DNA of 64,000 nt, from NCBI GenBank assembly GCA_030549335.1, contig CM060187.1, positions 59,292,203-59,356,202 on the forward strand. The letters are read 5' to 3'. Positions within the stretch are counted from its first letter, which is position 1. Each line of letters begins with the position of its first letter. The notes below the pieces were generated by a model. That model searched no databases. It was given only the letters and a program-made list of their open reading frames with translations, and was not told the DNA's origin. This stretch comes from Pontederia crassipes. Lineage: Eukaryota > Streptophyta > Magnoliopsida > Commelinales > Pontederiaceae. The position numbers and the translations under genes were made by a program. Positions 529 to 58,565 of this stretch are shown piece after piece.

Positions 529-564
529 ATGCGGGAGCGCAAGGCTTCCAACTCGATGCTCTGA
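529..564 (+). promoter_or_regulatory. Upstream ORF whose stop overlaps the kinase start codon
   Basis: An ATG at 529 opens an 11-codon frame (MRERKASNSML) that ends at TGA 562-564. The A of this stop is the A of the main ATG at 564, so stop and start overlap by one base (TGATG). If transcription starts near 480, ribosomes would meet this frame first, and the kinase would be made by leaky scanning or by reinitiation at the overlap. The sequence arrangement is direct; the effect on translation is inferred. Confidence 0.5.
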
Positions 565-2954
565 TGAGGCTTCTTACGCTCGCCGCCGCGGTGACAGCAG
601 CAGCTCTCCTCGTCTCCCTCCTCCTTGCCGCCGCCGCTGACGCCGTCGGAGTTGCCTCCACCGTTGCCATCGTCCCCGGAGACACCCCCGTCGTCTGCGG
701 CGTCGTCGCCGAGACCTCCCCTCTTACCGTACGGTGCTCCGCCTTATCCACCGCAGGCGCCGGCCAGCCCTTCGCCCTCCTCCCTAGCGTCTCGTTCTCC
801 TCCGTCTCCGGCGGCTCCGACTCCATCTGCGCCCTGAGGTCCGACGGCGCCGCTTTGTTCTGCTGGAACTCCAGCGGTCCCGGTGGCAACTTCACCGGCC
901 AGAGGCGCGTCTACCACAACGACACCGCTCCACTTCGCGACCTCGCCGTCGGGGACGCCCAGGTGGCGGCCTCCGGCAGCAATGGCACGTTCGTCAAGTG
1001 GTGGCGCGCCGACGGGAGCTTCCCGTCCGGGGTGTACGGGGACTTCCGATCCCTCACCTCCGGCTGGGGATTCTCCTGTGCGCTTGACCCCAAAGGCTCA
1101 GTAGACTGTTGGGGTCCCCGAAGCGACCTGATCCGGGACAACTTCACCAACCAAACCATGTCCACAATTGTCGCCGGCGAATCCCACGCCTGCGGCATCA
1201 CTACTGCCGGGCTCCTAATCTGCGACCGGAGCAACACATCGGACGGATGGACCCCACCTACGTCGGCAGCCTACGAGTTTGGGAGCCTGGCTCTGGGTTC
1301 GAGCCACGCATGCGCCGTCCGGCGCTCAAACGGCACGGTGGTCTGCTGGGACGCCGGGGGCGACCCCCCTTACGCTCCCGCAGGTGACACCGCGTTCGAA
1401 TTTGTGGTTGCGGGCGGGAACCTCACCTGTGGGCTGACGACGGCGAACCATTCCGTGCAGTGCTGGAGTGCCGACCGGAGGAGCCTGCCGCTGACGACGA
1501 TTCCGTTGCCGGAAATTCTTCCGGGGATGTGTACTTCTAACCAGAGCTCTTGCGAGTGCGGCCCTGTTTCATTATCTGAGACGCTCTGCGCCAATACAGG
1601 CGTCATATGCAAGCAATTTTGCGACTCTCAACCGTCTCCGTCAACGCCGTCACCGCCGTCTTCGCCATCTCCGTCCTCTTCAGAGAAGACGAGCAAAAAA
1701 TGGTTAGCATTCATGATCGTTGGCGCCGTCGGAACATTCGCCGGAATCTGTTCGATAGTTTTCTGCTTATGGTTCGGAGTGTGCCGAAACAAGAAAGTTC
1801 ACAATTCAGTTCAGCCGTCCATCACGGCCACCGGAAATGGAGGATCACACGCCTTGACCACCTCCCCGCCGGGAGTCACCAGCCCATTCACCTCTCCGAA
1901 TGGGTCCAAATCCCGAATTTTCCGGCGGCAGGGATCGAGGATCATGAGCCGGCAGCGGAGTGGCCCGTCCTCCTTCAAGGACCGAGCTGTGGAGTTCAGC
2001 TTTGCGGAGCTTGCCGCAGCGACCAAGGACTTCGCATTGGAGACCAAGATCGGTGCAGGGAGCTTCGGGACTGTGTACAAGGGAAAGCTCACCGATGGAC
2101 GAGAGGTGGCCATCAAGAGAAGTGAATCTGGTGTAAGGACGAAGAAGTTTCAGGAGAAGGAAAGTGCATTCCAGTCGGAGCTGGAATTCCTCTCTCGGCT
2201 CCACCACAAACACCTGGTGGGATTTGTAGGATACTGTGAGGAGAGGGAAGAGAGGCTCTTGGTGTATGAGTACATGAAGAATGGAGCTCTGTATGACCAC
2301 TTACATCCCAAGGATGACAAGGCTCCATTTACCTTGAATTCATGGAAGATGAGAATCAAGCTAATGCTGGATGCAGCTAGGGGGATTGAGTATCTGCACA
2401 ACTACGCCGTCCCGCCCATCATCCACCGAGACATTAAATCGTCAAATATACTGATCGACGGGAACTGGGTTGCTCGTGTTTCTGACTTTGGGTTGTCGCT
2501 AATGGGGCCGGAGTCGGAAGGTGTGCATCTCTCGATGAAGGCGGCCGGGACTGTTGGTTACATGGACCCTGAGTACTATGGCTTGCACCATTTGACAGTG
2601 AAGAGTGATGTTTATGGCTTTGGGGTGGTGATGCTGGAGGTGTTAACAGGTAAAAGAGCAATCTTTAAGGAGGAGGAAGGTGGAAGTCCATTGAGTGTGG
2701 TGGATTACACATTGCCCTCCATTGTTGCCGGGGAGATCACCAAGCTGCTCGACACAAGGGTTGAACAACCTGGATTACACGAAGCCGAGGCATTGGAGCT
2801 GGTGGCGTACACGGCAATGCACTGTGTGAGGCTTGAGGGTAGGGAGCGGCCGAGCATGTCTGACATTGTAGCAAATCTTGAGAGTGCACTTGCTCTCTGT
2901 GAGGAAGGGGATTCTAGCATCTCCAATGCAAGCATCTCATTTGCTTCAGATTGA
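564..2954 (+). CDS. CCR3: CRINKLY4-related receptor-like serine/threonine kinase (CCR3/CCR4 type)
   Basis: Single-exon gene, 796 aa. Residues 1-27 are a signal peptide. About 30-320 form a CRINKLY4-type beta-propeller ectodomain with repeated motifs such as CALDPKGSVDCWG, CGITTAGLLIC and CAVRRSNGTVVCW. A short Cys-rich stretch (about 320-355) and a Pro/Ser linker follow, then a membrane helix at about 381-406. The kinase domain has the glycine loop GAGSFGTVYKG (497-507), VAIK with Lys518, HRDIK with Asp623, DFG from Asp641 and GTVGYMDPEY; all key catalytic residues are present. The reading frame is open back to 483 but has no earlier ATG, and the ATG at 564 begins the signal peptide, so I start there. 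Family members act at the plasma membrane in epidermal and developmental signalling; the ligand is unknown here. CCR3 is preferred over CCR4 partly because of the neighbouring phosphatase gene. Confidence 0.93.
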   Translation: MRLLTLAAAVTAAALLVSLLLAAAADAVGVASTVAIVPGDTPVVCGVVAETSPLTVRCSALSTAGAGQPFALLPSVSFSSVSGGSDSICALRSDGAALFCWNSSGPGGNFTGQRRVYHNDTAPLRDLAVGDAQVAASGSNGTFVKWWRADGSFPSGVYGDFRSLTSGWGFSCALDPKGSVDCWGPRSDLIRDNFTNQTMSTIVAGESHACGITTAGLLICDRSNTSDGWTPPTSAAYEFGSLALGSSHACAVRRSNGTVVCWDAGGDPPYAPAGDTAFEFVVAGGNLTCGLTTANHSVQCWSADRRSLPLTTIPLPEILPGMCTSNQSSCECGPVSLSETLCANTGVICKQFCDSQPSPSTPSPPSSPSPSSSEKTSKKWLAFMIVGAVGTFAGICSIVFCLWFGVCRNKKVHNSVQPSITATGNGGSHALTTSPPGVTSPFTSPNGSKSRIFRRQGSRIMSRQRSGPSSFKDRAVEFSFAELAAATKDFALETKIGAGSFGTVYKGKLTDGREVAIKRSESGVRTKKFQEKESAFQSELEFLSRLHHKHLVGFVGYCEEREERLLVYEYMKNGALYDHLHPKDDKAPFTLNSWKMRIKLMLDAARGIEYLHNYAVPPIIHRDIKSSNILIDGNWVARVSDFGLSLMGPESEGVHLSMKAAGTVGYMDPEYYGLHHLTVKSDVYGFGVVMLEVLTGKRAIFKEEEGGSPLSVVDYTLPSIVAGEITKLLDTRVEQPGLHEAEALELVAYTAMHCVRLEGRERPSMSDIVANLESALALCEEGDSSISNASISFASD

Positions 2955-4510: not shown

Positions 4511-4687
4511 CCTGTAAAGTGTAAACTCCTCCGTATGCAAACATGGAAAATATTAATAATTGTAAAAATAACAAAAAAAATGATAAACAGTGACGAACAA
4601 TTACGTTTACATGTCCATTTTGATCATTCAATTAATTTGTGGAGAGTTTAGTCTAGAAGGAAACAAAGCGTTTTTACACTTTACAGG
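4511..4687. repeat. Small inverted-repeat element (MITE), about 177 bp
   Basis: CCTGTAAAGTGTAAA at 4511-4525 is repeated as a perfect 15-bp inverted copy at 4673-4687, and a looser match continues inward. Size and arrangement are those of a MITE. I see no convincing target-site duplication, so the family is not assigned. Confidence 0.55.
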
Positions 4688-4962: not shown

Positions 4963-4965
<3 letters not shown>

Positions 4966-4999: not shown

Positions 5000-5001
<2 letters not shown>

Positions 5002-6991: not shown

Positions 6992-9900
6992 TCATGTAGT
7001 ACAATCAGTGGTAGGAATTCCATGCTGAGTGAACCACTCTGGCATGTGAAACTTCTCATGCAGAAAAGGCCTGACATCTTTCTGAAGAGAAAGGTGCTTC
7101 AGGAGCGGAAGAATAACACCCACGAGCTGTAGACATCAATTAAAGAGGTTGAAACGGATACAATTTAAGCGGAATTGCAATGCTACTTATTTATGTATTG
7201 ATAAATGAGTAGAAGAGGACAATATCCACCTGCTCATCAAAAGGTTGTCCAGCAGAAAATGGAACACAAGGTATGCCATTTAATGGTTGTAGCACGAAAG
7301 AAAATGGATTGTTATCAACAATGACGATGCGTCTGAAATCTTTTGAAATGCAAGAAAGATCTTTAACATGCTCTCGGTATTGCCTGATTCGCAAAATTCA
7401 GAATACCTTGTAAGTTAAGCTACTGAACGTTGGCCAATGCATTAGGAAAGAAAAAAGAAACAATAAATGTTACATATTTTGGAGAAAAACTGTAGATATT
7501 AGTGTTCTGAAAGCACAGGCAAATAAGAGCTATATTTGATGCAAATGCATTTTAATTATTTGAAATATAATGCTGTAGGAAGAGTTCTGGCTGTAATTTA
7601 TTGAACTCAACTCAAGTGTGGAACTGATTGTGACATTTAAATGCAATGAAACTGAAAAGACAAAGTTCATCACAAAATAAGAGAGAAATTATTATGAAAA
7701 AAAAAACTTTGCATTTTTATATTGAAGAAGTATTGCAAGCTATTAGATGGGATTTAAATAAGCTTCCATGATAAACAAATTACTGACAAAGGAATTATAA
7801 ATCAAATTACTGACATTTTAGAATATGAAAGTTGTCATATTTGTTTCCATATCTTCAGTAAGCATGTTTTACTGGTGAAGATGTTACTACCTTAGGTATA
7901 AGCTACAAAAAAATCTGTCCTACTCATGAACAAACATCAAATCACATTGGACATACCATATGTGCCAGCCAAATTGATTTTTTAAAGAGGTTAGCCAAAT
8001 CGATTAATAAGTTTCTTTAGACATTTATTGATATTCAGAAACATCAAAGAACATAATAAGTGACAAATGAATATTCCATGAGAATGTTATAAATGATGAG
8101 TTTCAAGTGAATATGAATTCCAGGCCAAGATTGGCCAGTGAGTTGACTGCAGCAGATACACATGAGCAAAGTCTACAACACATTTTCCAGTAAATTTTTG
8201 TGAGACTACAATAAAGTACACACAATTGTCACTACCTGAGAAAGATTGTCAGAAGTAAATATAAAAAGGAGAAAAGTAAAACGTACGTGCTCACTGTTGC
8301 GGGTCGGTAGAGGCGATGAGCTAACTTATTATCAACATCTATTCTATCAACGACTGGTCTAGCATAATCTGTCGGACGTAGAATATAAAGGACACTTAGA
8401 TTACATTAGATAAAACAAAATAGAAGGTAACTAGTTCCTACCTTCCAGACCAGCAGTGAAAAGAACAAGATCAGCAAATTCACTACTCTGTTTTAGAAAC
8501 TCGCGCAAACCAGGGCGTTCAAAGACTGTCACATAGTTCATCTTTTGTTTTCCATCAATATCCTACAACAAAAATAAGTAAGATGGAGATTCTCCTTTTA
8601 AGAGAAAAAGGATAACTAGACAGATGGAGCTTAAAATTGGCAAGTAGAAGAAAACAAGATGAACATTATAACACCAACTAATAAACAACCTTCTCAGCAG
8701 ATAGGCACTCCAGATCAAAGCACTTTAAACCAGCTTCCACAGCCTGATTACGGACATTTGAGGGAAGGCTAGATGTTTCATATGCACAAATTAGAGTTTC
8801 ATCCAAGTCAAGTACAATCTGCACATTAGGCAACCTGATATTAATGCATGGGAGCTTGCAAATTTTTACATAATTGCTTTATGAAATGACAAAAATGAAT
8901 ACACCCTTGATCTAAGAGAATTACTACAAATGAACAAAATATGTGCAGAAGCAAGTATTAACATGGAAGGTAATAAGGTAACACGACATTTAAAATGGAC
9001 CTTCTCCTTCTGGAGTGTCTCAAGGGCATCTCACTGGACAATTCAAGACTGGACTCATGGACATTGATGCCTGCCCAGTTATCTGCCTGCGCAGTGTATC
9101 AGCTTTTGGATGAGGACAACAGGTTGGAAGGCACTGAGATGAGGATTGACAGCAACCATAAACAGCAGCTAAAGATTCCTCTCTACATGAAATCCTTTTT
9201 ATGGTTCTTTAGGAATCAATGGGCAAGGGAGATGAGTACCACTTGTGTCATGTGCGATGCTGCCATGTAGGAATTGACCATTTGTGATTTCATGCCCTGT
9301 AGCGAGAGCAGTGTGGCGACCGGCCTGCTGGAATTGGATTGACACCAGGTTTTTTGAAGGACCTATATGGCTGGGTGACATCATCAACATAATCACTTAT
9401 GTTTCAAAACACCGGCGAACTATACCTTTTGCTGTCTTGTAGGCCATCCAGTCACAATGAAATGTTTTTTTTTTATGGACAAAAAGATGACTAGCAAGCT
9501 GGTAGTCATTCTGGTCCTCAATCGATAAGTTAAAATAAACTTAAATAGCAAGAAGTTCACAGAAATCGAAATCAAACAGTTACGAGTGGACACCCTAGTC
9601 CCTGAATATCGCACTGTGTCCACATAAACACTCTCTGAAAAATTGCACTGTTGCATTGAGCCAGTCGCAATGAAATGTGGTTATGTTCAGGATACAGAGA
9701 TGATATGTGGAGGATATTGTTGGCATGGTACATGAAGAGAAAATGGAGGGAGAATATCTCGTCATTTCTCCAACTTGATGTAATCAAACATTTAACATGG
9801 ATTCCGGTTAGCATTAATAAATCTGGATGGATGCAATTCAAGGCAATCACCCTTCAGTCTCTGAAAGAAAACGTAATACCTAAAATTAAACTCCTGTGTG

Positions 9901-12900
9901 TTTTTAAGTTCTGTCCCAAGTCTCTGTCGGGCACTTAAATCTATGGTTGTACTATGAGGTGAGGAAGGCAAAGCAGGCATACAATTTACCATATAAAGGA
10001 AACCTTCTGCTTCAGAAGTTGAGCATAAGCTAATACAATACCATCTGACTTCCACGAATTAACACTTTCACCAAAAATTCCATCTAGCAAGAATAGATGA
10101 ACTTCGTTAATCCTCTTTTTGTACTAACTCACTTTTGTCTGGGAATGAGCGATCAAGGTTTGATGTTCAAAATCCTATGAGAAAAATGCACTTTCTTTAC
10201 TAGAATGAGAAAATGGAATGGAAGTTTCAGATAGAAGTGTTTCCATAACTGTGGATACATATTGCAGAAAGCATCAAAACTTGCATTTCTGTTGGATATA
10301 AAACCAGATCCTGAACATGATAGTCCAAGACCAAAGAGTGCAATGTCTCACTCAACACAAAAGAGGAGTACGTTAAGGATGGTTTTCAACGGACGGACAA
10401 CTTAAATGAAGCTTGTATGCCTTTTAGCACTAATGTAACTCTTTTACTCATCAATTAATATAGCATTTGATAGAGCATGTTGTTCAGACTCTATGCCAAT
10501 TTTCAAAAGGAAGGTGTTTAAACATGGAATCCACAATAAATGATGAGATATTCAACAGATACAGAGCATTTGCATCCATGACACATAATTCACTATAACT
10601 GGATTTTCAAGTTGTTGGTTGGGATGACATGCGAGTAGTTCCATCATATACAAACCATTGTGCATCCCTGATCATGGTTCACAAACTCTCGAGTTTGAGA
10701 CGTAAACTCTTACGAGTTCACAAGTTTAGTCATGAAATCGAGTCAACTCGGAGTGGAATCGAAGTTGGTGCTAAACTCGGGTAGACTCTGGTGGTAGACT
10801 CGAGCAAACTCGGACGAGTTTACTGGTAGAATCATCATATGCAAAACTTAGGCATTGAACCAAGATTTCCTTCTAAAAAAAACAAGATTTGAGGTCAAAA
10901 TTGAAATGAAAATGTCATTGAACCTTCATGATTTAACAATTAAGAATACTTTATGTTTTAATTTGTGTAACTAGTGGACTATTTTAGTAATTTGATGTAT
11001 AAACTTTGAACTCTTTACATTTTAACGTGTGTTGCATCGACTTATAGAGTGTACTTGTAGAGTGTGATGAATTGTTAAAAATGATGAATTCTTATGCATT
11101 TTAGTTCAAATATGAGCAATGAACCCATTACTTTTGAAACGAACATATAGAAACTTTTTTTCACAAATATTTTATAAACATATAATATTAATATATATAT
11201 ATAGTCATGTACGTAAACTCTAATAGGCAACCGTTTGGATGTCTAACATATAATCCAAGATCAGGGTTTTGAAACCCATCAGATAATCTCATCTTGCTAA
11301 TCCAGCTGGAGCAGCAAATTCCTGCTGGACCAAAGAACCTGTAACCCACCCCATTTTCCTTGTTCCTGCATTTATTGACATGGGACCAAGGTAGTCAAAA
11401 ACGCGCTTTGACTCGTAGAATCGTACGATTCTACGAGTCTACCCCGGCGAAACGTGCTCGATTCCACCCGGAATCGCGTTTCGCCGAGACGCGGTAGAAA
11501 CGCGCGTCTGGACGTAGAATCGGCAAAATCGCGTCTCGTTTTTTTTTCTCCTCCCGCTTGTTCGCCCACGTGAGACACATGACTGCCTTTTTATCTCCCA
11601 AATCGCATATGCCCTAATCTCTTTTGTCTGCTCCAACTTTCGTTACCTCCACCACGACGCCGCCGTTCCAACTCTCGCCGTTCGTCGATGACTGCCGGCG
11701 TTCACTTCTTCCGGCGCCCTGCTCCTTCTGATACTCTCTCGCTCTCTGCTCGTGCTGCTACGCCCTCGCTCCCTGCTGGTGCTGCTCCAACTCCGGCATT
11801 CTCTTGCTTCCGCTGCTGGTAGCTTGGTACTCTCCTTCAGTCCCTCGCTCTCTCTCTCTCTCTGTCTGTCTCTTTCTCTCTTTGTATGTGGCTGCTCACT
11901 GTCCATCTCTCTCGTTTCTATGCGTGACCTCACTTTGCCTAAGGATGCTCTGCTCGTGTTCAACCCTATAGCCACCGCTCACATCGTTCGCCTGCTGACC
12001 TCCTACAGCCGTTCGTCTCTGCTGGTACGCCCTCCTCCTCGTGCTCTTTCTCTACAAGTTTATGATTGTGCTCGTCCTCCGTCCTTCCTCTTGCAAATCC
12101 TCTTTTTTTTATGTGCGAACAGCCGAACAAGTTCCTCTATTTGTTTGCGAACATAGGATTCTTATTTCTTTGTGCCTCCGTCTATTTTTTTATGAACGAA
12201 ACCTCCCTCAGTTTTTTGATTGTTTGTCACTTAATAATTTGCAAGTAGAAAATTTTAATGGCTTCTGCTGGTGCTGGCTCTAGTTCTGGAGTTGGAGTTG
12301 GAAATTCAAATGAAGTTGGAAGTGGAGCATCTGGATGTGCAACGGCAACTGCAACTGTAAACACAAAAGTGCCAAGAAAAAATGCACCAGGGAATAGAAG
12401 TGATCCAGCTTGTAGCCTCTAGGCATATTACATTTGACAATTTGTTATTTTGTATGAACTTGGTTTTGACAATTTGCTATTTTGTATGAACTTGGTTGAT
12501 GGTTTGATGATTTCAAGTAGAAAATTCTGCTTCATTTTAAAAAAATGTCATATATTATTTGGGTCTATGCTAATTAATATATAAAATATTTTTCTGGTAG
12601 AATCGGCCGTGTCGTGTTACGTGTATACGATTTCGTGTTTTCTCAGCTTCTCCGTGTCGTGTCCGTTTTACATGTTTGACAACATTGCATGGGACCCATG
12701 TGGTAATAAAAAAGCTGTTTGGATGAATTGATAGGAATTAGAGGATAACCCATGTGATATTCCGATGCCAAACGATGCCTATGAGTTTCGGTCTTGAGTT
12801 TAACGAACGTAAAACAAGTCAGCGTAAACTCTCGAGTTTGAAAACTTTGTTCCTGACTATGATATATTTTCTTATGACCAATATGTTTTAAAGTCGTCTA

Positions 12901-13943
12901 TGGGGTCAGAAGTAAGTAATCATATTCCTATGAGCATTCAATGCTAATTCCTAGTAATTATATATCGCACAGCTTATACTGCTATGTGTCTTACAGAACA
13001 GGGAACTTTGCCTCAGGAATATGCAGACACACTTTTAGTAATCATGTCGAATTTAAAAAATATTCCTTAATGCTGAGTGACAATGTCATCCTCCAATTTT
13101 TCATAATTTATCTCAATTGCAAATGAATAGACGTTCTCCTATCTTAGAATATCTCATTACACTGAAAACTCCAACAGATCTGACGAAGAAAATAATTATT
13201 TTAAAATCATAAGACCTCTTTGGATAGCTCATTCCCAGCAAGCAATCAATGTTAACTGACTATCATGAATTTGCAAATATGCAGTATATATGCCTCTTTG
13301 ATTACTAATAGAGCGGAATGGCGTCGTATGATCCATGTAGCCGACCCCACCTAGTGGGATAAGGCTTTGTTGTTGTTGTTGCAGTATATATGCCTATGAT
13401 CACATAAACAGCCTAATCAACTATGCTTGTCTTCTAGCAACAACCGAATCCAACACGGCAGCATATAACCCTCCAAATATCCACAAAACCAGCTCCAAGA
13501 TTACATCTTTAACATGAGCAAGCACTCATCAGAGAGCCACTGAATTCGGATAAAGCGCACAGCCGAAGCTATTGCATAAAAAGTTTGCCCAAACAAATTG
13601 GGAGTAGATCGAAGCATACCGTGAGCTTATCGACCGGTTCGGCAGACAAGATGGCCGGTGAGGGAACACGGACCGAGGTAGCCTCGGAGGGAGTCTCAAC
13701 GGCAGCGAGGCGCTTGTATGCCGGCGAGGATGCGGCCGCGGAGGAGGAGAGGAGAGGGTGGCGAAAGCCGACGAAGGAGAGCAGCTGGGCGAGAGAAGGG
13801 GTACCCTTCAGGATCTGGAGCAGGAGCCCGAAGACGACCCCCACCAAGCTCACCACTGCCCGCCACGCCTGCACGCTCCTCGTACTCGTTGCGGTCGCCG
13901 CCGAGGTGGGTCCCGGCGTCGTGCACAGACCGGCCTCCGCCAT
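6992..13943 (-). CDS. SCP/FCP1-type HAD phosphatase, six exons, 314 aa
   Basis: Exons read on the minus strand: 13943-13620, 8818-8690, 8562-8442, 8368-8287, 7383-7230 and 7126-6992 (with stop). All junctions are GT-AG and phases agree, summing to 945 nt. Residues 30-47 are a hydrophobic, possibly membrane-anchoring segment. The NIF/FCP1 domain starts at IVLDLDETL with the DxDxT nucleophile Asp112/Asp114; it includes FTAGLE (Thr187 region) and the motif VIVDNNPFSF with Asp242. The family is metal-dependent and removes phosphate from serine or threonine, in other eukaryotes from RNA polymerase II C-terminal repeats or lipins; the plant substrate is not known to me. Closest remembered homologue is Arabidopsis At3g55960. 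The first intron (8819-13619) is 4.8 kb because of transposon insertions, while the other introns are 73-903 bases. Confidence 0.92.
8819..9464 (-). other. Phosphatase intron 1, promoter-distal part
   Basis: Intronic DNA just upstream of coding exon 2. A plus-strand open frame at 8995-9270 (91 codons) shows no known domain; it is antisense to the intron and I treat it as chance or decayed repeat. Confidence 0.5.
9465..9660 (-). mobile_element. Short poly(A) retroposon (L1-type mobilised), about 196 bp
   Basis: A T-run at 9465-9474, which is a poly(A) tail on the minus strand, opens a 196-base insert flanked by the 17-bp direct repeat CCAGTCACAATGAAATG (9448-9464) and CCAGTCGCAATGAAATG (9661-9677), one transition apart. 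Tail plus long duplication is the signature of target-primed reverse transcription. The body has no recognisable reverse transcriptase, so it may be a truncated LINE end, a SINE, or a fragment of a processed transcript. Confidence 0.65.
9678..10672 (-). other. Phosphatase intron 1, middle part
   Basis: Intronic sequence without a recognisable gene. Short open frames on both strands (9675-9938 and 9792-10055) overlap one another and have no domain signature. Confidence 0.45.
11387..12687. mobile_element. hAT element, 1301 bp, with perfect 8-bp target duplication
   Basis: CATGGGAC occurs immediately outside both ends (11379-11386 and 12688-12695). The termini are inverted: CAAGGTAGTCAAA on the left and CAATGTTGTCAAA on the complement of the right, typical of hAT ends. 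Subterminal regions carry repeated CG-rich motifs (ACGCG, GAATCG, CGTGTCG). Inside are a pyrimidine-rich stretch (11840-11885), a short piece of hAT transposase at 12258-12422, and a 33-bp tandem duplication at about 12430-12495. It cannot move by itself. Confidence 0.85.
12258..12422 (+). pseudogene. N-terminal remnant of a hAT transposase
   Basis: 54 codons from an ATG, beginning MASAGAGSSSGVGVG and reaching KVPRKNAPGNRSDPA before a stop. Gly/Ser-rich leaders followed by RNAPGNRSDPxW are typical of the segment just before the BED zinc finger of plant hAT transposases. The rest of the transposase, including the catalytic domain and dimerisation region, is missing. It lies inside the 1.3-kb hAT element and in the same orientation as its right end. 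Confidence 0.6.
13296..13380 (+). mobile_element. 5'-truncated RTE-LINE/Au-SINE type retroposon with (TTG)n tail
   Basis: 85 bp between perfect 15-bp duplications GCAGTATATATGCCT (13281-13295 and 13381-13395). It contains GTAGCCGACCCCACCTAGTG, GATAAGGCTTTG and a TTG tail. One frame reads AEWRRMIHVADPT, which resembles the C-terminus of plant RTE reverse transcriptases, supporting derivation from an RTE LINE or a SINE sharing its tail. It sits in phosphatase intron 1, 240 bases from exon 1. The exact duplication suggests a fairly recent insertion. Confidence 0.8.
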
Positions 13944-19736: not shown

Positions 19737-21782
<2,046 letters not shown>

Positions 21783-23742: not shown

Positions 23743-26700
23743 ATGGGTTTGGACTACTATAAGCTGCTGGGCGTCGACCGTGGTGCCAAAGACGATGACC
23801 TTAAAAAGGCCTACAGAAAGCTTGCAATGCGATGGCACCCAGACAAGAACCCTACGAATAAGAAGGAAGCCGAAGCCAAGTTCAAGCAAATTTCTGAAGC
23901 ATATGATGTTAGTTTTCCTATTTGTCCCCTCCTAGAGACCTTTTCTTAAGCTTGTTGCTTTTACTGTTGTTGCTGTTTATTCAGTTTTTGTGCTACCCTT
24001 CTTACCATGTTTGATCCCATAAATCTTGTCTATAGCTTCAAACTTGGTCTCTACCTTTCAGCACGTATTTTGTTGTTATCACCTTATATTTTGAACCATA
24101 CAGCTTGTCCTAAATCTTCCAAAATTCTTTTTTTTTTAGCCTTTTTTTCTCCTTTTAGTTTTTGAGCTCATAAAATTCTGCCTAATACCCAGTAGGGTTG
24201 GTCAATTTATCTATTTCATTTAATAGAAACAATATCAAATGACCATATTATTGGCGGTCTAGTTGATAGTCATCCTTTTCCTAACAGTAATCTGTATTCC
24301 ATTACTCGTAATATTCATAACCTGCCATATAACCCTTTAAAGTTTGATGTTTTTCTACGTTTTCTTCCAGATTTTATTTATATTAAATTCCTCTAACCCT
24401 CCAATTTAACCTTTTTCTTTGTCTCATTTTTTTGTACAATATCTCTTCCAAGACTTTAAGACTAAGACATTAGATTTCCAACCAGGAGTTCCAGAGAAAA
24501 ATCCAATTTTTTGTCCTTACAAATCCGCATGGATTGCTTGCTTCTGAATTTGTGTTAAACAAAACGTCCTCTACTATCTTAAAGATTTGATATTCTGGTG
24601 ATGTTAGAACTGTATGTCCATCTTGTGTTTTCCTAAATGTTTAGGTGCTAAGTGACCCCCAGAAAAGGGCCATTTATGACCAGCTTGGTGAAGAAGGCCT
24701 CAAGGGCCAGGTACCACCCCCCGGAACAGCTGGCCCTTCTGATTTCTTTGGTGGTACACCTGGGTTCACCAAGTTCAAATTCCATCCGAGAAGTGCTGAT
24801 GAGATTTTCTCTGAGGTCTTTGGAAGTGGAGGCACAAATTTTCCCAGGGGTATGTTTGGAGAAGATATGTTTGCTGCATTTGGTGGTGGGAGCGGTGGAG
24901 AAGCATCTTATAGTGGTCAAAGGAAAGGTGCAACTATAGAGAAGCCACTTGTTTGCAGCCTTGAGGATCTCTACAAGGGTACCACAAAGAAGATGAAGAT
25001 TTCAAGGGATGTACTTGAAAATGGGTGAGCTGCGTTAGAATTTTTCTGATCTTTGTTAAAAAAAACATATGATTAAGTGGTAGTGCATCTTTTTACATTA
25101 TTATTTTATGCCACAAATTAGAGTTGTGATTATTCATACTGTTTCTGAAGTAGGTTTTGCGTGTCTTATTTATTTATTCTTTTTGGGAAAGAAACTTGTA
25201 TGGCTAATAATCCTCACTACAAAAAAATAAAGATTTATTAAGATACACCATATAAATTTTTTTGTTATCCTAAAAAACTGTTCTTTTTTGTGCTTCAGAC
25301 TACATGTCACTACAAACCTTACTAGAGAAATCTTCTAATTATGTGAAATGAAACCTAATATAAACTGAGTTAATTGCATCTGATGATCGCTCTTATCACC
25401 ATCACAGTAGAAACTGCACCTTTAACTCTCGACCTGTTTCCACCACGCAACCACCCCATCCACACCCAAGCACGCACACAAAGTTCTACAAGTTATAGCC
25501 TAGCCATTAATGTGTCACCAACCTCAGCATAACTAGAGAAATCTTCTAGTTATGTGAAGTGAAACCTAATATAAACTGAGTTAATTGCAGCTGATGATCA
25601 CTCTTATCACCATCACAGCAGCAACTACACTTTTAACTCTCAACCTGTTTCCACCACCCAACCACCCCATCCACACCCAAGCACACACACAAAGTTCTAC
25701 AAATCATAGCCTAGCAACTAACGTGTCACCAACTTCAGCATAAACCACTCATGATAGAGTTTGTGAAAGGATTCTGGTGACATTACGACCCTGTTTGGTA
25801 CAAGAACAAGACCTTGTTCTCACTTTTTTTGCCAAACACCAATTTTAGAAACATGCGAGTCCCATATTAATCATTGTATAATAAGAAAAAGTAGAGAACA
25901 AATTGTTCTTGTCCCACCATAGAACATCCTTGTTCTCATCATAAGAACTTAGTGAGAACTAATGAAGATTGTTCTAGAATTTATTAACCCTTTATCGAAC
26001 AGAGCCTACAAGTGCTGCTGCCACTATAAATACTCCAGCAACAGAGTAGGTGGCGCCGACTTGACGGAGTCTTATCTTTGAAACAGATATATTCTTGCTT
26101 CAGGGTAATTGTTTTGGAAACTGACATAAAATAGCCATGAAAAAAATTCTTTTATCAAATTTTCAAAAGGAATGACAAGAACATAATAACCTCTCTTGTT
26201 AGTTCCATTATGAGAGGCAGTACAATTTGGATTTGGTGTTGGGAGGGATGATCCGATTAAAGGGATTTAAGCTTTTTGGCTAAGTGGGCACAAAAAATGA
26301 ACTTCCGCTCTCATTTTCTTCTTTTTATAATGCATCTATGGTTGACTTAGAGGGCTGTAAAACTTTAAATAGAATGAAAGCAATTCTCTGTATATTCTTC
26401 TCACATTTCTCTTGTTTGCAGAGATGAGGGAACTGTGTCCTCTTCCCATTATAGTTTACACCTATTTGTTACAGATGTCGAAAGAAGTTTTTTTGCTAAA
26501 TTATGGAATTTTCAGTGTATTGACGTACTGAGATTCCTGCCTTTTGCAAGTGTCAATTATCTAGTTTAGTAATGGACACATATATATGTAATACTATATT
26601 GTGCCAATCTTCTAGTTGTGTGTTGTATATTGTGGTCCATCAAATTCTGCACTCTGCAGCAATTAATCATAAACTATTGTACTTCATGTTTGGTCATGAT

Positions 26701-27189
26701 TAATTGCATGGAATAAATCCAATTGTTTCTTAAATTTGTCTTTCCAGGAAACCATCCACCAAGGAGGTGCTGTTGACCATTGAGATCAAGCCTGGATGGA
26801 AAAAAGGAACAAAGATCACATTTCCAGAAATGGGAAATGAGGGTCGCAACTTAATTCCAGCAGATCTGGTATTCGTCATTGATGAAAGACCACATGGCGT
26901 GTTCAAGAGAGAAGGGAATGATCTGATTGTCACACATAAAATATCTCTCGCTGAATCTTTAACTGGTACCACTGTGCAACTGACAACTCTAGATGGCAGG
27001 AATCTAACTATTCCTATCAATTCAATTGTTAGTCCCACTTATGAAGAGATTGTTCCTGGAGAAGGGATGCCAATTACAAAAGAGCTACCAAAGAAAGGAA
27101 ACTTGAGAATTAGGTTTCAAATTAAATTCCCTTCCAGGCTTACACCGGAGCAGAAGTCCGGTCTAAAGAAGTTGCTGGCCCCTTCTTAA
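23743..27189 (+). CDS. Class B (type II) DnaJ/HSP40 co-chaperone, 328 aa
   Basis: Coding exons 23743-23907, 24645-25024 and 26748-27189; GT-AG junctions, phases fit, 987 nt with stop. Residues 1-66 are a J domain with HPD at 32-34, which stimulates Hsp70 ATPase. A Gly/Phe-rich linker (about 75-150) follows, then the two C-terminal substrate-binding beta-barrels ([22 protein letters not shown] and later segments). There is no zinc-finger Cys cluster, which separates it from class A, and no signal or CaaX motif, so a cytosolic/nuclear protein is expected. Length is usual for the plant DNAJB1/B4-like group. Intron 2 (1723 bases) contains a 211-bp tandem duplication and a MITE. Confidence 0.95.
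25322..25743. repeat. 211-bp tandem duplication in DnaJ intron 2
   Basis: Two head-to-tail copies, each starting CTAGAGAAATCTTCTA (25322 and 25533) and ending near GTGTCACCAAC-TCAGCATAA. They differ by scattered substitutions, mostly transitions, and have no obvious length change, so the duplication is moderately old. Each copy holds CCACCMAACCACCCCATCC and an AAGCACRCACACAAAG stretch. Confidence 0.9.
25787..26006 (+). repeat. MITE, 220 bp, family copy 1 (in DnaJ intron 2)
   Basis: Ends GACCCTGTTTGGTACAAG and, on the complement of the right, GGCTCTGTTCGATAAAG; flanked by TAC on both sides. The body (AACAAGACCTTGTTCTCAC, a GAGTCCCATATTAAT segment, then AACAAATTGTTCTTGTCCCACC) matches the copies at 41362 and 44679. 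Confidence 0.75.
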
Positions 27190-37793: not shown

Positions 37794-38948
37794 ATGGAGT
37801 GCTCGCAAGAAGAATGGCCTGAGCCAATCGTCCGAGTGCAGACCTTATCCGCCGCCAATGTGATCCCGGACCGGTACATTAAGCCGCCGGCCGAGCGCCC
37901 GAGCCTGCAGGAGGACGCCGCCGTCGAGAGGGCTCCCCTGAGCGTGCCGGTCATCGACCTCGGGAGCCTAGTTCGCCGCCGCCGTAGCCGTCCCCATGAT
38001 CAGCTCGACGACCGCCTTGGCGCGGAGGCCGACGAGGTGGAGCTGATCACGGAGAGCTCCCGGCCAGACGGCGACGCCGACGACGGTGCCGCCGCCGAGG
38101 TAGCGAGGGCGGTGGCGACGGCGTGCCGGGAGTGGGGCTTCGTCCAGGTGGTGAACCACGGGGTGCAGCCGGAGCTGCTGGACCGGTTCAGGGAGGTGTG
38201 GAGGGAGTTCTTCCATCTCCCCATGGAGGCGAAGCAGGCGTACGCCAACAACCCGCGGACGTTCGAGGGCTACGGCAGCCGCCTCGGCGTGGAGAAGGGC
38301 GCCCCGCTCGACTGGGGCGACTACTACTTCCTCGTCTACTTCCCGGAGGCCAAGCGCAACCGCGCCCGGTGGCCGGCGCTGCCTCCTTCTCTCAGGTAAC
38401 TATGTCGTATACCATGTCTATGTCGACGATGACATGAATATACAGTGAGTTGTACGTAGGTACCTGACGCAAAGTGCATATATTTGGAGGATGCAGGGAG
38501 ACGGTGGACGCCTACGCGGCGGCGGCGACGGAGCTGGCGGAGACGATGCTGACGGCGCTGTCGCTGGGTGCGGGGCTGGACGGAGGGTTCTTCCGGCGGA
38601 CGTTCGGCGGGGAGGGGCAGCAGGACGCGAGCCTGCGGGTGAACTACTACCCCAAGTGCCCCCAGCCGGAGCTGGCGCTGGGGCTGTCGGCGCACTCGGA
38701 CCCCGGCGGGATCACCGTCCTCCTGCCGGACGACCACGTCAAGGGCCTGCAGGTGCGCAAGGACGGGAGCTGGGTCACCATCGATCCAATCCCTTATTCT
38801 TTCATCGTCAACATTGGCGATCAGATCCAGGTATTCATTCATTCGGTCAGTCAATTTATTGCTTTTGCCCTTAAATTCAATTAATGCTCTCTGAATTTTC
38901 ATCCAATTGCTCGCATTCGATAATATCCAATACTTTATACATCTTACA

Positions 38949-39000
<52 letters not shown>

Positions 39001-39831
39001 CATGCATTGATTATTCATTCACCAGCTCATTTTTAGGAAATAATTCCATTATCAGCTTTCATGTGCAATATTTATTTCATAATTGACTTGGGATTTCATG
39101 TTATATAGATTGATCAGAGTTAACTGGATGTTTGTAGGGTTAACAAATATATACTTCACTATGCCTATACTTCTTTTCTTTCTTTTTTTTTCAGTTGGAG
39201 TACTGCACTATGTCTATTGCCTTATACGTAATAACACAAATAATGGTGTGCACACATGATATATTAGATATACATGTTTGATTCAAGATGCCTCGTAGGG
39301 CTACTAGAAGATTAAAGTTGGCAAAAAGAACATGCCATACATGTGATACAATCTAGGGATATTATCATTATAGAGATTATGTAGAATATTTCTCGTTCCA
39401 TAGTTCTTAATTAATCTGAATATGATGGATTGAGATATATCTTAACTTTTTAGTTAGGCTAACTTTTTTGGTGTCACATATCAATGATTGATTTGTCTTT
39501 TTATCAAAGATGCTTTAATATGTGCACGTTTCGCATATTTTAAAATTTGTTATTATTGAGCTACGTAGCATCCTAGGGTTAGATTATGAATGGTCCAAAA
39601 ATAGTAGTAATAAGGAACCCTTTATATTATTTCATCAATACTAGAAATAGTGATAAAAATCGATTTGTCATTTTAAAAAATTGATATCATTGCGATCAAT
39701 TAAATATCCTGAATAAAAGTTTTTTTTATCAAATAAGTGGTATTACCTTATTCTCTTCACGATGATTAGATTAATTAATTTTGTTATATATTGTTCATTC
39801 AACCAAACAAATATCACCGGTGGAAGTAATG

Positions 39832-39896
<65 letters not shown>

Positions 39897-42242
39897 CTTT
39901 TAGCTTTATAGATTCACACACACACATATAGAGTTTAATGGGCATGTAATGCCCATTTGGTGAAACATCGTGAAACGTCTATATCATGACCCTTCCATTT
40001 CAGATCTACAGCTAGATCAAAACCACCGTCATTCCCTCTAAATCACTCTCTCTTTTTCTCACCCCACCGTAAAATCGTCGGCCGCTAGATGTCGTCGACC
40101 CTGGCTGACGACACCGAATCTTGGCGAACTTCCCGGTCAACGTGGTTGGCGCAGATCGGGGACAGAGGCGATGATCGGAGGAGAGAAGAGAGATCAGAGG
40201 GGAGGGGAGGCGGTGGTGATGCAGATCGGGGAGCGGAGAGAAAAGAGGAGAGCCGAGGAGAGGCGGTGACGACGATGACGGCACATATCTGTGACTGGGG
40301 CGGTGAACGCAAAGAAGAGAGAGATCGAAGGGGAGGGGTGGCGGCGGCGGCAGAGATTAGGGAGCAAAGGAGAGGCGGTGGCGGCGCATGCATATCGGGG
40401 ACAGAGGTGGTGATCGCAGAGAAAAGAGAGATCGGAGGAGAGGGGCAGCGGCGGCGTAGATAGGAGAGCATTGGAGGGAAGAGAGAGGAGAGAGAAGAGA
40501 GAGAGGGCAGAGAAGAAAGAGAACCAGAGGGGGGAGGGGGAAGTTGTTTAGTGATTTTGATCTCAATCGTAAATTTGAAATGAACAATTATGATAGGAGC
40601 ATTTCACGATGCTTCACCAAATGGGTGTTACACACCCATTAAACACACACATATATATATATATATATATAATTTTTTAATCGTATCTTGCATCACTATA
40701 GATTCATCGACTTGAAAATAAAATTTTATTATATAATACGTCGATCGACTTATTGTACAACACGATATACGCTCAATTAGGAAATGATGGTAGTATACTC
40801 TGATTAGGAGATTATAGTAGGGCAAGTTCGTTCATTGCACACTAGAAGACTGTAGCCACAAAAAAAAATTTGCATTTATTTTATGGTAGTAGAAGCCAAT
40901 TTAAGAGTAAACGTTTGAGTGCATGCGCTGCAGTATCTACGCTTAGTCCACATTATTTGTCCTGTTGCAAATAGAAGACCCAAAAGTGGAATACACGAAA
41001 ATACAAAAAAAAGTAAAAAAATAGAAAGCCCGATGAAAATAATAATATATATCGGTGGATGAAACATTACATCACACTCTTTTCCCTTTCGCAACATATA
41101 TTTTATTTAAGAAAAAAAAATCAAATCACGTGTTCCACATTGGTCAGTTCAAGGGAAGGGTGTAGCATGCGAAAGCATGAGCTCCATTACCACGCGATTC
41201 TTTTTTGTCGTATACCTTGCAGTTGAATAATTAGGACTATTATTATTATGTTGGTGGATAAGTATAATAAATTAATCACTTGAGTAGTAGGATAATTACT
41301 TGTCATATTGTGAGCTTGTCGATTTCGTTTTCGACGAATTTAAAAGATTAATCTTCTTATTGATCCCATTTGAAATCATTAAAGTTAATAAGTTTTAGAA
41401 CAAGATGTATTTGTTCTCGTTTTATTCTTTGGATGAGAACAATGAAAATTTTAAGGTGAGACAAGAATAAATTTGTCTCTATTTTTTTTTCTATTTTGTA
41501 ATTATTAATGTGGAGTCCACATATAAAAATAGAACAAGACCTTGTTCTCCTATCAAATAGGTCCTAAACGTTTCGGAGTTGGATCCTAAAAAAATAGTTT
41601 AATATGGTAGTCAATCGAAATAAAAGATTGTTGATTAATTAAGCTGATCCATCGCTGAGAGAGGAGCATTAAATCGACGTGCGTCAACTATCAAATGAGC
41701 TAATTCGGTGGGTTGTTTGTGTCAAGTGGAGCTTTACACTTTTAAATTACTTGCAAAACTCATCTCACTTCGTATTTGTTTTCATATAGAAGATTTGGGC
41801 TATATAAGACGAATTAATCTTTCAAAGTTTTGTTTTTTAATTCATCGACCAAATTAGAAATGGAATAATTTTGTTTTATTGGTGTCGGCCGTTATATATA
41901 TCCCTCGGCATATGAGTACCCGTTAAGTTTGATAATTGCACATCCCTGATATCATATTATATAACACGATATATATGTTTTGGATTAATTCAGTTGATGA
42001 GTAACGGGATATACAAAAGCGTGGAACATCGCGTGATTGTGAACAATACCAAGGAGCGCTACTCGGCGGCGTTGTTTTATAACCCGAAGGGCGACGTGCT
42101 GCTTGAGCCCGTTAAGGAGTTTGTGACGTCGGATCGGCCTCCGTTATATAAGTCGATCACCTCCATGGAGTATCGGATGTTCGTAAGGAAGATGGGACCT
42201 CGCGGCAAGTCCGATTTGAAGTCTTTAGAGATTAAGTCATAA
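37794..42242 (+). CDS. JOX: 2-oxoglutarate/Fe(II) dioxygenase, jasmonate-induced oxygenase (JOX/JAO) type
   Basis: Exons 37794-38395, 38497-38830 and 41994-42242, GT-AG, 1185 nt, 394 aa. The start EEWPEPIVRVQTL and the tracts NPRTFEGYGSRLGVEKGAPLDWGDYY, NYYPKCPQPELALGLSAHSDPGG and YKSVEHRVIVN are those of JOX proteins, which hydroxylate jasmonic acid to 12-OH-JA and so damp jasmonate signalling in the cytosol. Iron ligands His267, Asp269 and His324 and the 2-oxoglutarate-binding Arg334-x-Ser336 are present. Residues 61-98 are an Arg/Asp/Glu-rich insert not typical of the family, between IDLGSL and VARAVATACREWGF. Exon 1 is very GC-rich. Intron 2 is 3163 bases because of repeats and transposons. 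A related LBO or SRG1-like role is possible, but the N-terminal and substrate-loop motifs favour JOX. Confidence 0.92.
38953..38998. repeat. (AT)23 microsatellite in dioxygenase intron 2
   Basis: Uninterrupted AT dinucleotides about 120 bases after the exon-2 donor site. Confidence 0.9.
39832..39895. repeat. (GATA)16 microsatellite in dioxygenase intron 2
   Basis: Sixteen perfect GATA units, 64 bases, 38 bases outside the Mutator-like element. Likely polymorphic. Confidence 0.92.
39934..40643. mobile_element. Non-autonomous Mutator-like element with purine-rich core, 710 bp
   Basis: The left end TTTAATGGGCATGTAATGCC matches the complement of the right end TTTAATGGGTGTGTAACACC, and the match continues (CATTTGGTGAARCATCGTGAAA) for at least 45 bases and more loosely for about 80. 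Both flanks are CACACACATATA-like, so a target duplication cannot be told from microsatellite. The core (40140-40545) is almost all A and G on the plus strand: GAGAGA and GGAGG blocks plus interspersed CGGCGGTGG pieces repeated around ATCGGGGA. It sits in intron 2 of the dioxygenase gene. Open frames across the core are composition effects. Confidence 0.7.
41362..41564 (-). repeat. MITE, 203 bp, family copy 2 (in dioxygenase intron 2)
   Basis: Inverse orientation to copy 1. The left end GATCCCATTTGAAATC and the complement of the right end GGACCTATTTGATAGG are paired, and the body repeats AACAAGACCTTGTTCT, the TGTGGAGTCCACAT segment and GAGACAAGAATAAATTTGTC in the same order as copy 1. Target duplication unclear. 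Confidence 0.65.
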
Positions 42243-45785: not shown

Positions 45786-46900
45786 GCCTTTAAATTATTT
45801 AAAATTAAATCATTATGCTTCCGACAATTAGCTGTAGTTAAGTTGGGATTAAATTATGCAAATGTAATGTATATGTTTATGTCTCTTGATTATGCAATGT
45901 TTCGAACTGTTAGGTGTGGCAAGTTTATTATAAGAATCAAATACATATTAGTCTAATTAACATAAAAGATGAAAAAAAGGTCATCATGCTATGGGAGAAT
46001 GAAAGTGCTAGAACGAAAATTAAAGATAGTGGTGATTAGTATAAATGATGGCAAAATAGTGAAATTGCGGGTCAGTGAAGGCAACCTATTGATGACCACC
46101 ACTCATATTGTACGAGACCCTCCATCCTGTACAATAAATTAGAATCCTTGGATTCTTAGCCCGTTATGGTGTGTATCATCGTTGACGAGATGATGCATGA
46201 AGTGATATGATGCATTCTAAGAGAAAGAAGATCTCTTCAAGGTAATAAAAACAAAGGAAGAAATTCTATATATAACTCCCGTGACACAAGTTAAAGAAAG
46301 AATGATGAAAGTTAAAGAAGATGAAGATAAGAGGAAAATAAAAGAGAACATGATGAAACATAAATGCATATTTCAAGAGCTTGTAGCAATAGTTGGTGTC
46401 ATGTGCAGCGTTCTCCAAGTTCTTAGTACATCCACTCCTTATTGATTAGCATTCTCACCTGCAAAATCCCAATGCAGGAGAAATCGAATACCCATGAGCA
46501 AGGAAGCCCAGTACAATAGAACATAGACGACGAAATAAGATTCAAAGGAAATATTGAAACCATATGCCCATGATAAACAATTGAAATCTTTGGCTTTTAT
46601 GCAGTGACTATAATGGGCCATGCCTTATACTTTACATTACGCAGATCGATACTTTATTCCTTGTTTTAATTATATTTTGTCTTTACAATACTCTGCAATA
46701 TCTTTACAATACTATGTTCCATACTTTACTTTACAATGTCTTTGCCATACTATACAATACTTTACTTTACATTTGCTTTACAATGAATTGCACTACGTCT
46801 TTTATATTACTATAATATCCTTACAGTTGATTGTCCTATGCGAGCTCGACTTTATTAATTGGGATGACAGAGGTGCCTCTCTGAATATCTGAAATCAGTA
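45786..46900. other. Intergenic DNA with degenerate TTTACAATAC repeats
   Basis: From 46625 to 46800 the sequence is built of loose repeats around TTTACAATAC and TACTTTACTTTACA, which create a Tyr/Leu/Phe-rich open frame (46620-46892) that I do not accept as a gene. No other structure is seen. Confidence 0.5.
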
Positions 46901-46930
46901 AACCCCAAAAGGGAAAATGAGTGTGTATTA

Positions 46931-47200
46931 ATGCCTCACCCAATTCGGAATGTAGGTGGGAGAGAACCTACATCCCAAGAACACTGATCAATTAAGAAAC
47001 TTGTAGGTTCACTATCTCCTCAGTTAGCTACCTGCCTCTCTGACTTAATTCTTTAATTTTTGAGGGAAGGAGTGTGACCAAAGCATCACCCTTCATTCGA
47101 GATACATGTGGAAGAAGACCTGAAATCTCATGAACAACGGTCATTGAAGACCAGTAGTTTCGTTGTCTCTTCAACTAATTACCTGCCCCTCTCTGTACAA
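46931..47200. repeat. Diverged direct repeat, about 150-bp period
   Basis: GCCTCACCCAATTCGGAATG (46932) and GCATCACCCTTCATTCGAGA (47082) begin two units that share GGAAGAAGACCT/GGGAGAGAACCTAC, the GAACAMYGRTCAWT block, TCTCYTCARYTARYTACCTG and CCYCTCTCTG. Similarity is near 65-70 percent by eye, so the duplication is old. Function unknown. Confidence 0.5.
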
Positions 47201-48343
47201 TACTATGATCTCTGCTCTATACACTGGGGGCGGCACATAGCAATTCCACATCTTTATCTTTGATTTACTTATCTTTGATCATCTTTACTTTTACTAAGGA
47301 ACCGAAGAGAAAGGGTTCCTCTTTCTCAAAGAGTTTAGTTCTCTGTAACTTTAGATTTCTAATTATGGTTTCATCTAATTCTGTCGAGAGTAGGTCCCAC
47401 TTCTGAAGGATTGTACCTAACGGAAAGAGTCCATCTTTCTGTCCGGTTGAACCCGGGTCGGGTGGATTGAACCCGGGCCGAGTCGAGTCTTATTATAGTA
47501 TTAAATATATGAATGGCTCGGGCCGAGTGAGATGAACTCGGTTCAGGTCCAATTCTGTATATAGGTCTATTCCACCCGGGCCGAGTAGAAGTTAACTCGG
47601 ACCGGGTAATCGCCGATCACCTCATGCGACTCCGGCGAAGTTGTGTTTTTGGCCGCACTTCTGCGACTTCGTCGGTGAGACTGCCCGATCCGGGTCTACT
47701 TAGACTCGGGTCAGGTTCTAAAATGATGACTTCATCTGCACATCGATGAAGCAACTCGGTCCGAGTCTATTGAGACCTGGACTATGATTAAGTTAGGCCC
47801 GGGGCCGAGTTGTTGTCAACTCGGGCCGGGTGCTTGATGCGCAGAATCACGCTGGTCATCTCTCTCTTCTCCGACGACTCTTCGGCCGTCGAAAAGAGTA
47901 GATCACAATACAAAACATTACACTAATACATTCAAGTACATGATGATAACATAGTTCGCATCAATGGATTCATATTTTGTCATCTAGGGGGATTTAGATC
48001 TAAGGAACCTCGTTATCGGTAGCTTTGGTCGTCGGTCGATTCGTACGTCGATCCGACGGCTGTCGGTTGATCCTGATCGGCGAGAAAAGTTTGCCTCTCT
48101 TGTGCGCACGTCGAGGGAGAGTCACCGCGCGTTGAGGAGCGTCGAGTGGTGCGTGTGTCGGTCGCCTCTGTTCTGCTGCTCATGCACGTCGGTCATCGGA
48201 CGAGAGGAAGAGACGAGGGGAGGTGATCGGCCGGGTTTCCAAGGGGGCGCAAGGGCGATCCCCATCGCCCTTTTTATAGCCCCGGCCGACCAAGTGAAAC
48301 GACTGCGAATCAAGGGAGGAATTTCCTCCCATGTCGTTCGACA
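47201..48343 (-). mobile_element. Possible LTR-retroelement fossil with promoter-like segment
   Basis: On the minus strand the segment opens TGTCGAACGACATGGG at 48343, reaches a strong TATA motif GGCTATAAAAAGGGC at about 48285, and continues through GC-rich leader-like sequence, as an LTR would. Between 47450 and 47850 it carries many CCGGGTCGGGT and CTCGGNCCGAGT phrases. No coding domain or second LTR was found, so if it is an LTR element it is broken and incomplete. A decayed gene promoter is the alternative. Confidence 0.28.
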
Positions 48344-56941: not shown

Positions 56942-57556
<615 letters not shown>

Positions 57557-57625
57557 AGTTCTTCTCTAAAGCTTGCCTTCTCCTAGGTTTCTTGCTCTTC
57601 TTTCTTTTTCCTCTTCTCCTTCTCC

Positions 57626-57691
57626 ATGCCTTCTTCTGATGGAGTTCTACTACCACCAGCAGCAACATATCAACCCTTACCTGAATCCTAG
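57626..57691 (+). promoter_or_regulatory. Upstream ORF overlapping the trihelix start codon
   Basis: An ATG at 57626, 13 bases before the main ATG and in another frame, opens 21 codons (MPSSDGVLLPPAATYQPLPES) and ends at TAG 57689-57691, inside the main coding region. Its context is weak (T at -3, C at +4), so leaky scanning is expected; ribosomes that use it would pass the main start. Confidence 0.5.
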
Positions 57692-58565
57692 ACAGCTAGA
57701 AGCCGGCGAGCGGGACCGGGATCGCGACCGGCTGCTGCAATGGAGCTCGGAGGAGACCAAGGAGTTCCTCGCCATGCGAGCCGAGCTCGACAGGAGCTTC
57801 ATGGAAACCAAGCGCAACAAGCAGCTGTGGGAAGCCATCTCCGCCGGGCTACAGCAGAAGGGCTTCCACCGGACCCCTGACCAGTGCAAGTCCAAGTGGA
57901 AGAACCTCGTCACCAGGTTCAAGGTATAGTGATCAATGTTAAGTATACATATCCTTTAACCGCATGTACCTTATAGATACGTGCGCCCTACTTATAATTA
58001 AGATCATATATGTTGTCATATGTATCCTGTACATTTTATGCAGGGAAGCGAGGCCAAGGAAGGAGATGGCAACAGGCAGTTCCCTTTCTACGAGAACATG
58101 CGGAAGATATACTCTGATAGGTCCCTCGCACTTGAGAAGGGGAAGGCTAAAGCAGTGCAAGTGCGGGACAAAGAATGCGAGGAGGAAGATGAGGAGGCGG
58201 AGGAGGAGGAGGAGGAGAACAAGGCGGCGACCACTGGGAGCAGTTCCAAGAGGAGGACGAGGAGGAGGAGGACGGGCGCGGGCGAGGAGTTACCGGAGAT
58301 CAGCGCGCTGAAAGAGTTCGCGAGGCGGCAGCTGGAGATGGAGGCGCGGTGGCTGGACGAGGCAGAGGCGATGGAGGCGGAGAGGAGGGCGAAGGACGAG
58401 GAGTGGCGGAAGGCGGTGGAGTCGCTGCAGGCGGAGAGGGCGGAGGCGGAGAGGAGGTGGAGGGAGAGGGAGGAGGCGCGGCGGGCGAGGGAGGAGGCGC
58501 TCGCCGAGAGGCGGCACGGCGTCGTCATGGCGCTCCTCGAGAAGCTCTGTGAGAAGGGCTTCTAG
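57639..58565 (+). CDS. GT-3: GT-3-type trihelix transcription factor, two exons, 268 aa
   Basis: Exons 57639-57923 and 58044-58565, GT-AG, phase 0. The trihelix DNA-binding domain spans about residues 34-95, from WSSEETKEFLAMRAELD through KRNKQLWEAISAGL to QCKSKWKNLVTRFK, with the three spaced aromatic positions of helices 1-3. The intron falls exactly after this domain. Then come RQFPFYENMRKIY, an acidic run (140-153), a basic patch SKRRTRRRR (163-171, likely nuclear localisation) and a long charged coiled coil (about 182-262) typical of the GT-1/GT-3 clade and used for dimerisation. GT-3 proteins bind GT elements such as GTTAC and GAAAAA; GT-3b responds to salt and pathogens in other plants. 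The frame is open before 57639 but without ATG in frame. Confidence 0.93.

Follow-up and report, generated by a model that had tools for sequence, protein, structure and literature searches.

The stretch of DNA analysed here, referred to as the window, is 64,000 nucleotides long and lies on contig C5 of the Pontederia crassipes genome (C5:59292203-59356202; 59.292-59.356 Mb), in an assembly of 1.13 Gb with 43 contigs, of which the large ones are paired. A block of six genes fills positions 564-58565; this span is exact and every reading frame is complete. Exon models were drawn by eye with GT/AG borders. Five of the genes are open without internal stops and RPL13A is likewise open, with its first exon ending at 20077. 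The genes are as follows.

564..2954, plus strand: CCR3-type CRINKLY4-related receptor kinase, single exon, 796 amino acids (aa), with copies on C6, C13 and C14.
6992..13943, minus strand: HAD/NIF-type phosphatase, 6 exons (13943-13620, 8818-8690, 8562-8442, 8368-8287, 7383-7230, 7126-6992), 314 aa, with copies on C6, C13/C14 and C11/C12.
19806..21782, plus strand: RPL13A (uL13), 4 exons (19806-20077, 20283-20399, 20524-20611, 21639-21782), 206 aa.
23743..27189, plus strand: DnaJ co-chaperone (J and DnaJ_C domains), 3 exons (23743-23907, 24645-25024, 26748-27189), 328 aa.
37794..42242, plus strand: JOX-type 2-oxoglutarate (2OG) dioxygenase, 3 exons (37794-38395, 38497-38830, 41994-42242), 394 aa.
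57639..58565, plus strand: GT-3-type trihelix factor, 2 exons (57639-57923, 58044-58565), 268 aa.

The identities, order and span of the six genes had been given by a first-pass annotation, and the exon models, Pfam matches for all six proteins and matches to PDB sequences bear them out; left unstated there was that the HAD gene lies on the minus strand, running from 13943 down to 6992. The intron-free CCR3 gene is predicted to encode a receptor kinase that has crinkly repeats and whose kinase domain is intact, since its product has Pfam kinase and RCC1_2 matches, HRDIK and DFG motifs and, by pattern, four C-x-CW repeats rather than seven. The HAD protein matches the Pfam NIF phosphatase family and contains the motif DLDET. 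RPL13A matches Ribosomal_L13, and its residues 1-206 align with plant uL13 sequences in the PDB; the DnaJ protein carries both DnaJ and DnaJ_C. The dioxygenase matches DIOX_N and 2OG-FeII_Oxy, its closest PDB sequence is At5g05600 (6lsv; 439 bits, runner-up 225), and its metal and 2OG ligands are kept (HSD 267, EHR 323, RYS 334), all of which points to a JOX. The sixth protein has a trihelix domain (Myb_DNA-bind_4, E 1.4e-22). These families are known as receptor kinases, phosphatases, ribosomal proteins, co-chaperones, jasmonate hydroxylases and DNA-binding factors, and the six genes of the window probably have the roles of their families.

The window very probably holds one of several copies of an old piece of chromosome, which underwent repeated duplication and was thinned differently in each copy. 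Its ancestry was tested inside the source genome, by searching for each of the six proteins genome-wide, with CCR3 divided into its ectodomain and the remainder. A near-identical partner on C6 (9.697-9.767 Mb) has all six genes in unchanged order; between C5 and C6 the synonymous divergence (Ks) of the JOX exons is 0.03, and the pair thus represents either separate haplotypes or the outcome of a very recent duplication. On C14 (53.123-53.196 Mb) and C13 (4.853-4.902 Mb), CCR3 (+), HAD (-), RPL13A (+) and JOX (+) follow one another in the order and orientation of the window, at 70-98% aa identity per match. This is the same gene series in a diverged segment, as in an ohnologous block. No GT-3 gene was found near the C13/C14 copy at the sensitivity of the genome search; the next best intact copy of GT-3 is on C15/C16, beside JOX. 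There (C15:11.599-11.758 and C16:46.728-46.866 Mb) RPL13A, JOX and GT-3 are retained. JOX and RPL13A remain together on C9 (38.02-38.04 Mb) and C10 (43.21-43.24 Mb), and likewise at C12:39.20-39.32 Mb, while C11:7.81-7.87 and C12:84.18-84.26 Mb retain HAD and two JOX genes. The claim of an ancient linkage, duplicated and thinned, is therefore supported by copies inside the source genome. The description of the block as unbroken is true only of C5 and the near-identical C6; in the older copies between two and four of the genes survive. The C13 copy also contains four HAD fragments with stops, located between its JOX and HAD genes (C13:4.874-4.878 Mb).

A locus was counted as linked when no more than 130 kb separated it from a JOX gene. 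For RPL13A this holds at 9 of 9 loci found, and at all seven of those outside C5/C6. RPL13A is the cleanest evidence for linkage because no identity cut-off was needed. With cut-offs that were picked post hoc, the hits having already been seen, linkage to JOX is also complete for HAD (6/6; best match at least 60% aa), intact GT-3 (4/4; at least 60%) and full-length CCR3 (4/4; at least 74%), and these cut-offs, with that for DnaJ, exclude HAD-like matches at 32-44%, trihelix matches at up to 51% and seven GT-3-like places with stops. Under uniform placement, the chance of a locus falling near a JOX gene is p ~0.003. Counting RPL13A once per chromosome pair and excluding the window pair, 4 of 4 linked loci give p ~1e-10, or ~2e-5 if clustering raises p 20-fold. 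That the genes are neighbours by chance, with coincidental echoes in Arabidopsis, is thus extremely unlikely: even the more cautious of these values opposes it, the linkage recurs in five further sets of places, and all that can be set on its side, the failure of DnaJ and the neighbour gene PDX1 to recur, carries no weight. RPL13A-JOX is the most durable link in the block, and DnaJ its least supported and least replicated member.

The duplications fall into layers. JOX is the gene for which Ks was obtained; it gives 0.21-0.23 between the window and C13/C14, 0.38-0.48 between C9/C10 and C15/C16, and 0.55-0.76 between the window and the rest. In the JOX tree the window clusters with C13/C14 (support 93), C9/C10 with C15/C16 (55), the C12 copy at 39 Mb with one of the two copies at C11/C12-84 Mb (80), and the other of these with C8 (95). 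Arabidopsis AtJOX2 shares 57-65% identity with each of the 14 JOX copies, similar to the 58-66% between the window copy and the other clades. An approximately unbiased test of five constrained trees rejected only the one that unites AtJOX2 and the C8/C11b/C12b clade (p 0.01). The older JOX duplications may have preceded or followed the monocot-eudicot split.

The first-pass annotation had called the block an angiosperm one, five of its genes recurring in Arabidopsis as pairs or triples. In published papers CCR3 is AT3G55950 (PMC4617170), AT3G55970 is JRG21 and AT2G38240 an 'Oxidoreductase' (PMC4083284), AT2G38250 and AT5G01380 are trihelix genes listed under GT-1 (PMC5526864), and AT5G01390 is a 'DNAJ heat shock family protein' (PMC6553934). 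At3g55960 was not seen described as a HAD gene among the papers listed by the literature searches. Adjacency in Arabidopsis is taken from the consecutive locus numbers of the Arabidopsis Genome Initiative (AGI). RPL13A, which has no part in that Arabidopsis pairing, stays with JOX most faithfully in the source genome, and DnaJ, which has, is the least replicated. Mudge et al. (2005; PMC1201151) report four duplicated segments of Arabidopsis that are collinear with one soybean and Medicago block, and JOX genes, At3g55970 and At5g05600, mark an end of two of them. The angiosperm label draws on AGI adjacency and on this one eudicot paper, while the tree of JOX with AtJOX2 leaves the timing unsettled. 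We infer that the segment predates the separation of monocots and eudicots and that all three Arabidopsis pairs descend from it.

Four Arabidopsis neighbours, PDX1, symplekin, CAX and ferritin, were regarded as candidates for genes beside the window. Symplekin matches occur at C15:11.614 and C16:46.839 Mb, between RPL13A and JOX, in the interval that holds DnaJ in the window. They are weak, consisting of a single exon with 34 residues (E 8e-5 and 4e-5) over the family cut-off. Ferritin gave zero matches genome-wide, an uninformative result, as short exons probably mask the gene. J-domain genes at C13:4.984 and C14:53.052 Mb were considered as copies of the window DnaJ gene and rejected, as they match in the J domain only, at 55%. 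At three loci PDX1 and DnaJ lie 266-303 kb apart (C3:32.40/32.69, C4:13.23/12.96 and C4:51.45/51.15 Mb). Because this echoes the proximity that At5g01390 and At5g01410 presumably have in Arabidopsis, the true counterpart of At5g01390 may be at these C3/C4 loci and not the DnaJ gene of the window. In Arabidopsis itself, AT5G01400 is a symplekin gene, and flowering plants have a second symplekin class (PMC3538716).

The repeated duplication of the segment most probably reflects whole-genome duplications, polyploidy being the presumed source, and each copy would then have lost different genes. Judged by linkage in the source genome, the ancestral set comprised CCR3, the HAD phosphatase, RPL13A, JOX and GT-3; symplekin probably belongs to it by way of the C15/C16 copy, and DnaJ would be admitted by its Arabidopsis adjacency to GT-3a. 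The genes would have stayed together through inheritance and slow rearrangement, and nothing found demands a functional link.

Several observations weigh against this account. On C7/C8, JOX stands without any of the partners that were looked for. JOX precedes RPL13A on C9/C10 and is inverted on C15/C16, and the distance between the two genes reaches 107-122 kb on C15/C16 and C12. DnaJ is near JOX at only 2 of 12 loci (at least 56%), both on C5/C6. The HAD-like matches at 32-44% aa and the seven GT-3-like places with stops (up to 74% aa, in long matches) lie away from JOX. Symplekin is not found beside the window itself, the place named beforehand for testing, and is near JOX at 2 of 4 loci matching its C-terminal exon and at none of 3 others; PDX1 is near JOX at 0 of 9 loci. 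Finally, the block of PMC1201151, in its available part, excludes At2g38240 and At5g01380, so that a single origin of the three Arabidopsis pairs does not follow from it. Some of these points would suit small segmental or transposed duplications that moved pairs or triples of genes without any whole-genome duplication: the evidence comes from single-gene searches rather than chromosome-scale collinearity, RPL13A and JOX are anything from 11 to 122 kb apart, and their order is altered on C9/C10 and C15/C16. Such an origin is nevertheless improbable, since the copies recur on different chromosome pairs, nearly always on both members of a pair, and four genes keep their order and orientation on C13/C14. 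Duplication and differential thinning of one old segment remains the preferred reading.

The GT-3-like places with stops are at C11:46.36, C16:25.29, C12:4.81, C10:63.73, C12:43.99, C16:57.80 and C4:2.18 Mb. Six of them have both exons, and all are dispersed broken copies, perhaps carried by a transposon.

It had also been suggested that the linkage of JOX and GT-3 might reflect shared regulatory DNA. The window was compared for shared non-coding DNA with C14:53.172-53.200 and C16:46.727-46.762 Mb, and two features emerged.

46292..47282, no strand assigned: dispersed repeat resembling a long terminal repeat (LTR) in the JOX-GT-3 interval, 71% match to C14 in inverted order.
57194..57268, no strand assigned: 75-bp stretch ahead of GT-3, with 80% identity to one that precedes the GT-3 gene on C16.

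The 1-kb match to C14 was considered as conserved non-coding DNA or an RNA gene and rejected in favour of a dispersed repeat. Its part at 46820-47280 has 40 scored matches genome-wide (the best 40 of 3378 candidates), including five pairs 6.4-8.1 kb apart, an LTR-like spacing. The match has no Rfam hit, the adjacent open frame has no Pfam hit, and part of it folds like its shuffles (z -0.26). Further matches at 42.5-42.8 and 49.7-50.3 kb occur at several places or in both orientations, as repeats do. Shared control DNA for JOX and GT-3 is therefore unsupported, because the interval shares repeats and the one 75-bp stretch only. More generally, selection on shared regulatory DNA or on co-expression might hold the genes together, chiefly JOX with RPL13A or GT-3. 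The unfailing company of RPL13A and JOX and the 75-bp stretch common to the window and C16 would fit such selection, yet the remaining shared stretches behave as repeats, the longest being dispersed genome-wide, and the intervals vary in length as well as in orientation, which together make selection of this kind a very unlikely explanation. A perfect CT microsatellite of 103.5 copies (57332-57538) lies some 100 bp ahead of the start codon of GT-3.

The substrate of the window JOX is not certain, because a Phe that would contact jasmonate in AtJOX2 is Ser in this copy. The contacting residues of AtJOX2 would be R225, F346 and R350. At the position aligned to the Phe (exon 41994-42242), the window copy and those on C6 and C14 have Ser; C15, C16, C11a, C12a and C8 have Phe, and the C12 copy at 39 Mb has Tyr; the YR that follows is kept in 9 of 9 copies read.

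Elsewhere in the window, ten further open frames gave no Pfam match at E 0.01, a tRNA scan was empty and Rfam had no match. The GC content of third codon positions declines from the first to the last third of the gene in five of the six genes; in the exception, GT-3, it rises. This pattern is suggestive of a monocot. Intron 2 of the DnaJ gene contains a 211-bp unit repeated twice (25321-25743; 91% matches). Three stretches with a common 3' motif, near 13345, 6139 and 45737, were read by eye and resemble short interspersed elements (SINEs).

The C15/C16 copy is surrounded by CCR3-like ectodomain matches, 24 on C16:45.88-47.62 Mb and 15 on C15:11.54-12.48 Mb. Among the best 96 of 3625 candidates scored, at least two kinase matches lie near the array on C16 and at least one on C15 (C15:11.533). 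Of four loci read, one has a frame without a membrane anchor, two are anchored but lack a kinase, and the fourth carries a kinase in which NFG replaces DFG. Three copies within the array are 26 kb apart and have identical scores. It is conceivable, if rather doubtful, that this copy of the block is a nursery of CCR3-derived receptors, which may be recognition or immune receptors. Among the papers listed by the literature searches, none dealt with this block or with CCR3 clusters that lack kinases. Individually, and in their available parts, PMC4195496 holds nothing on the block, PMC8872139 covers soybean CCR3 homologues with nothing on the block, and PMC2270835 has none of the block genes sought. 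The anthracnose locus Co-1HY of common bean contains a CRR3 cluster in which three of four copies have the kinase part only (PMC5226810). CCR3-type genes are thus amplified in a cluster there as on C15/C16, but the bean copies are kinase-only whereas those on C15/C16 are mostly ectodomains, three of the four loci read having no kinase. The C15/C16 array may be the mirror image of the bean cluster.

The block is real, old, fractionated and syntenic, ordinary in kind and a good example of a known phenomenon. In fractionated segments of paleopolyploid plants, one ancestral gene list survives in parts that differ from one duplicate to the next. The segments described here are the same in kind, with RPL13A-JOX persisting at every RPL13A locus found. 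The local order of RPL13A, JOX, CCR3, HAD, GT-3 and probably symplekin offers an anchor for rebuilding old plant chromosomes and helps to assign true orthologues of JOX and CCR3, while the tempting regulatory reading of the linkage gains no backing from conserved DNA here. The closest published comparison is synteny block 1b of the soybean, Medicago and Arabidopsis study (PMC1201151). Its main text contains none of the terms crinkly, DnaJ, oxygenase, trihelix or 'ribosomal protein L13', and it differs from the present block in lying on the other side of JOX and in comparing eudicots. The likeness is that a region bounded by JOX has been preserved across duplicated segments, with differing gene losses in each.

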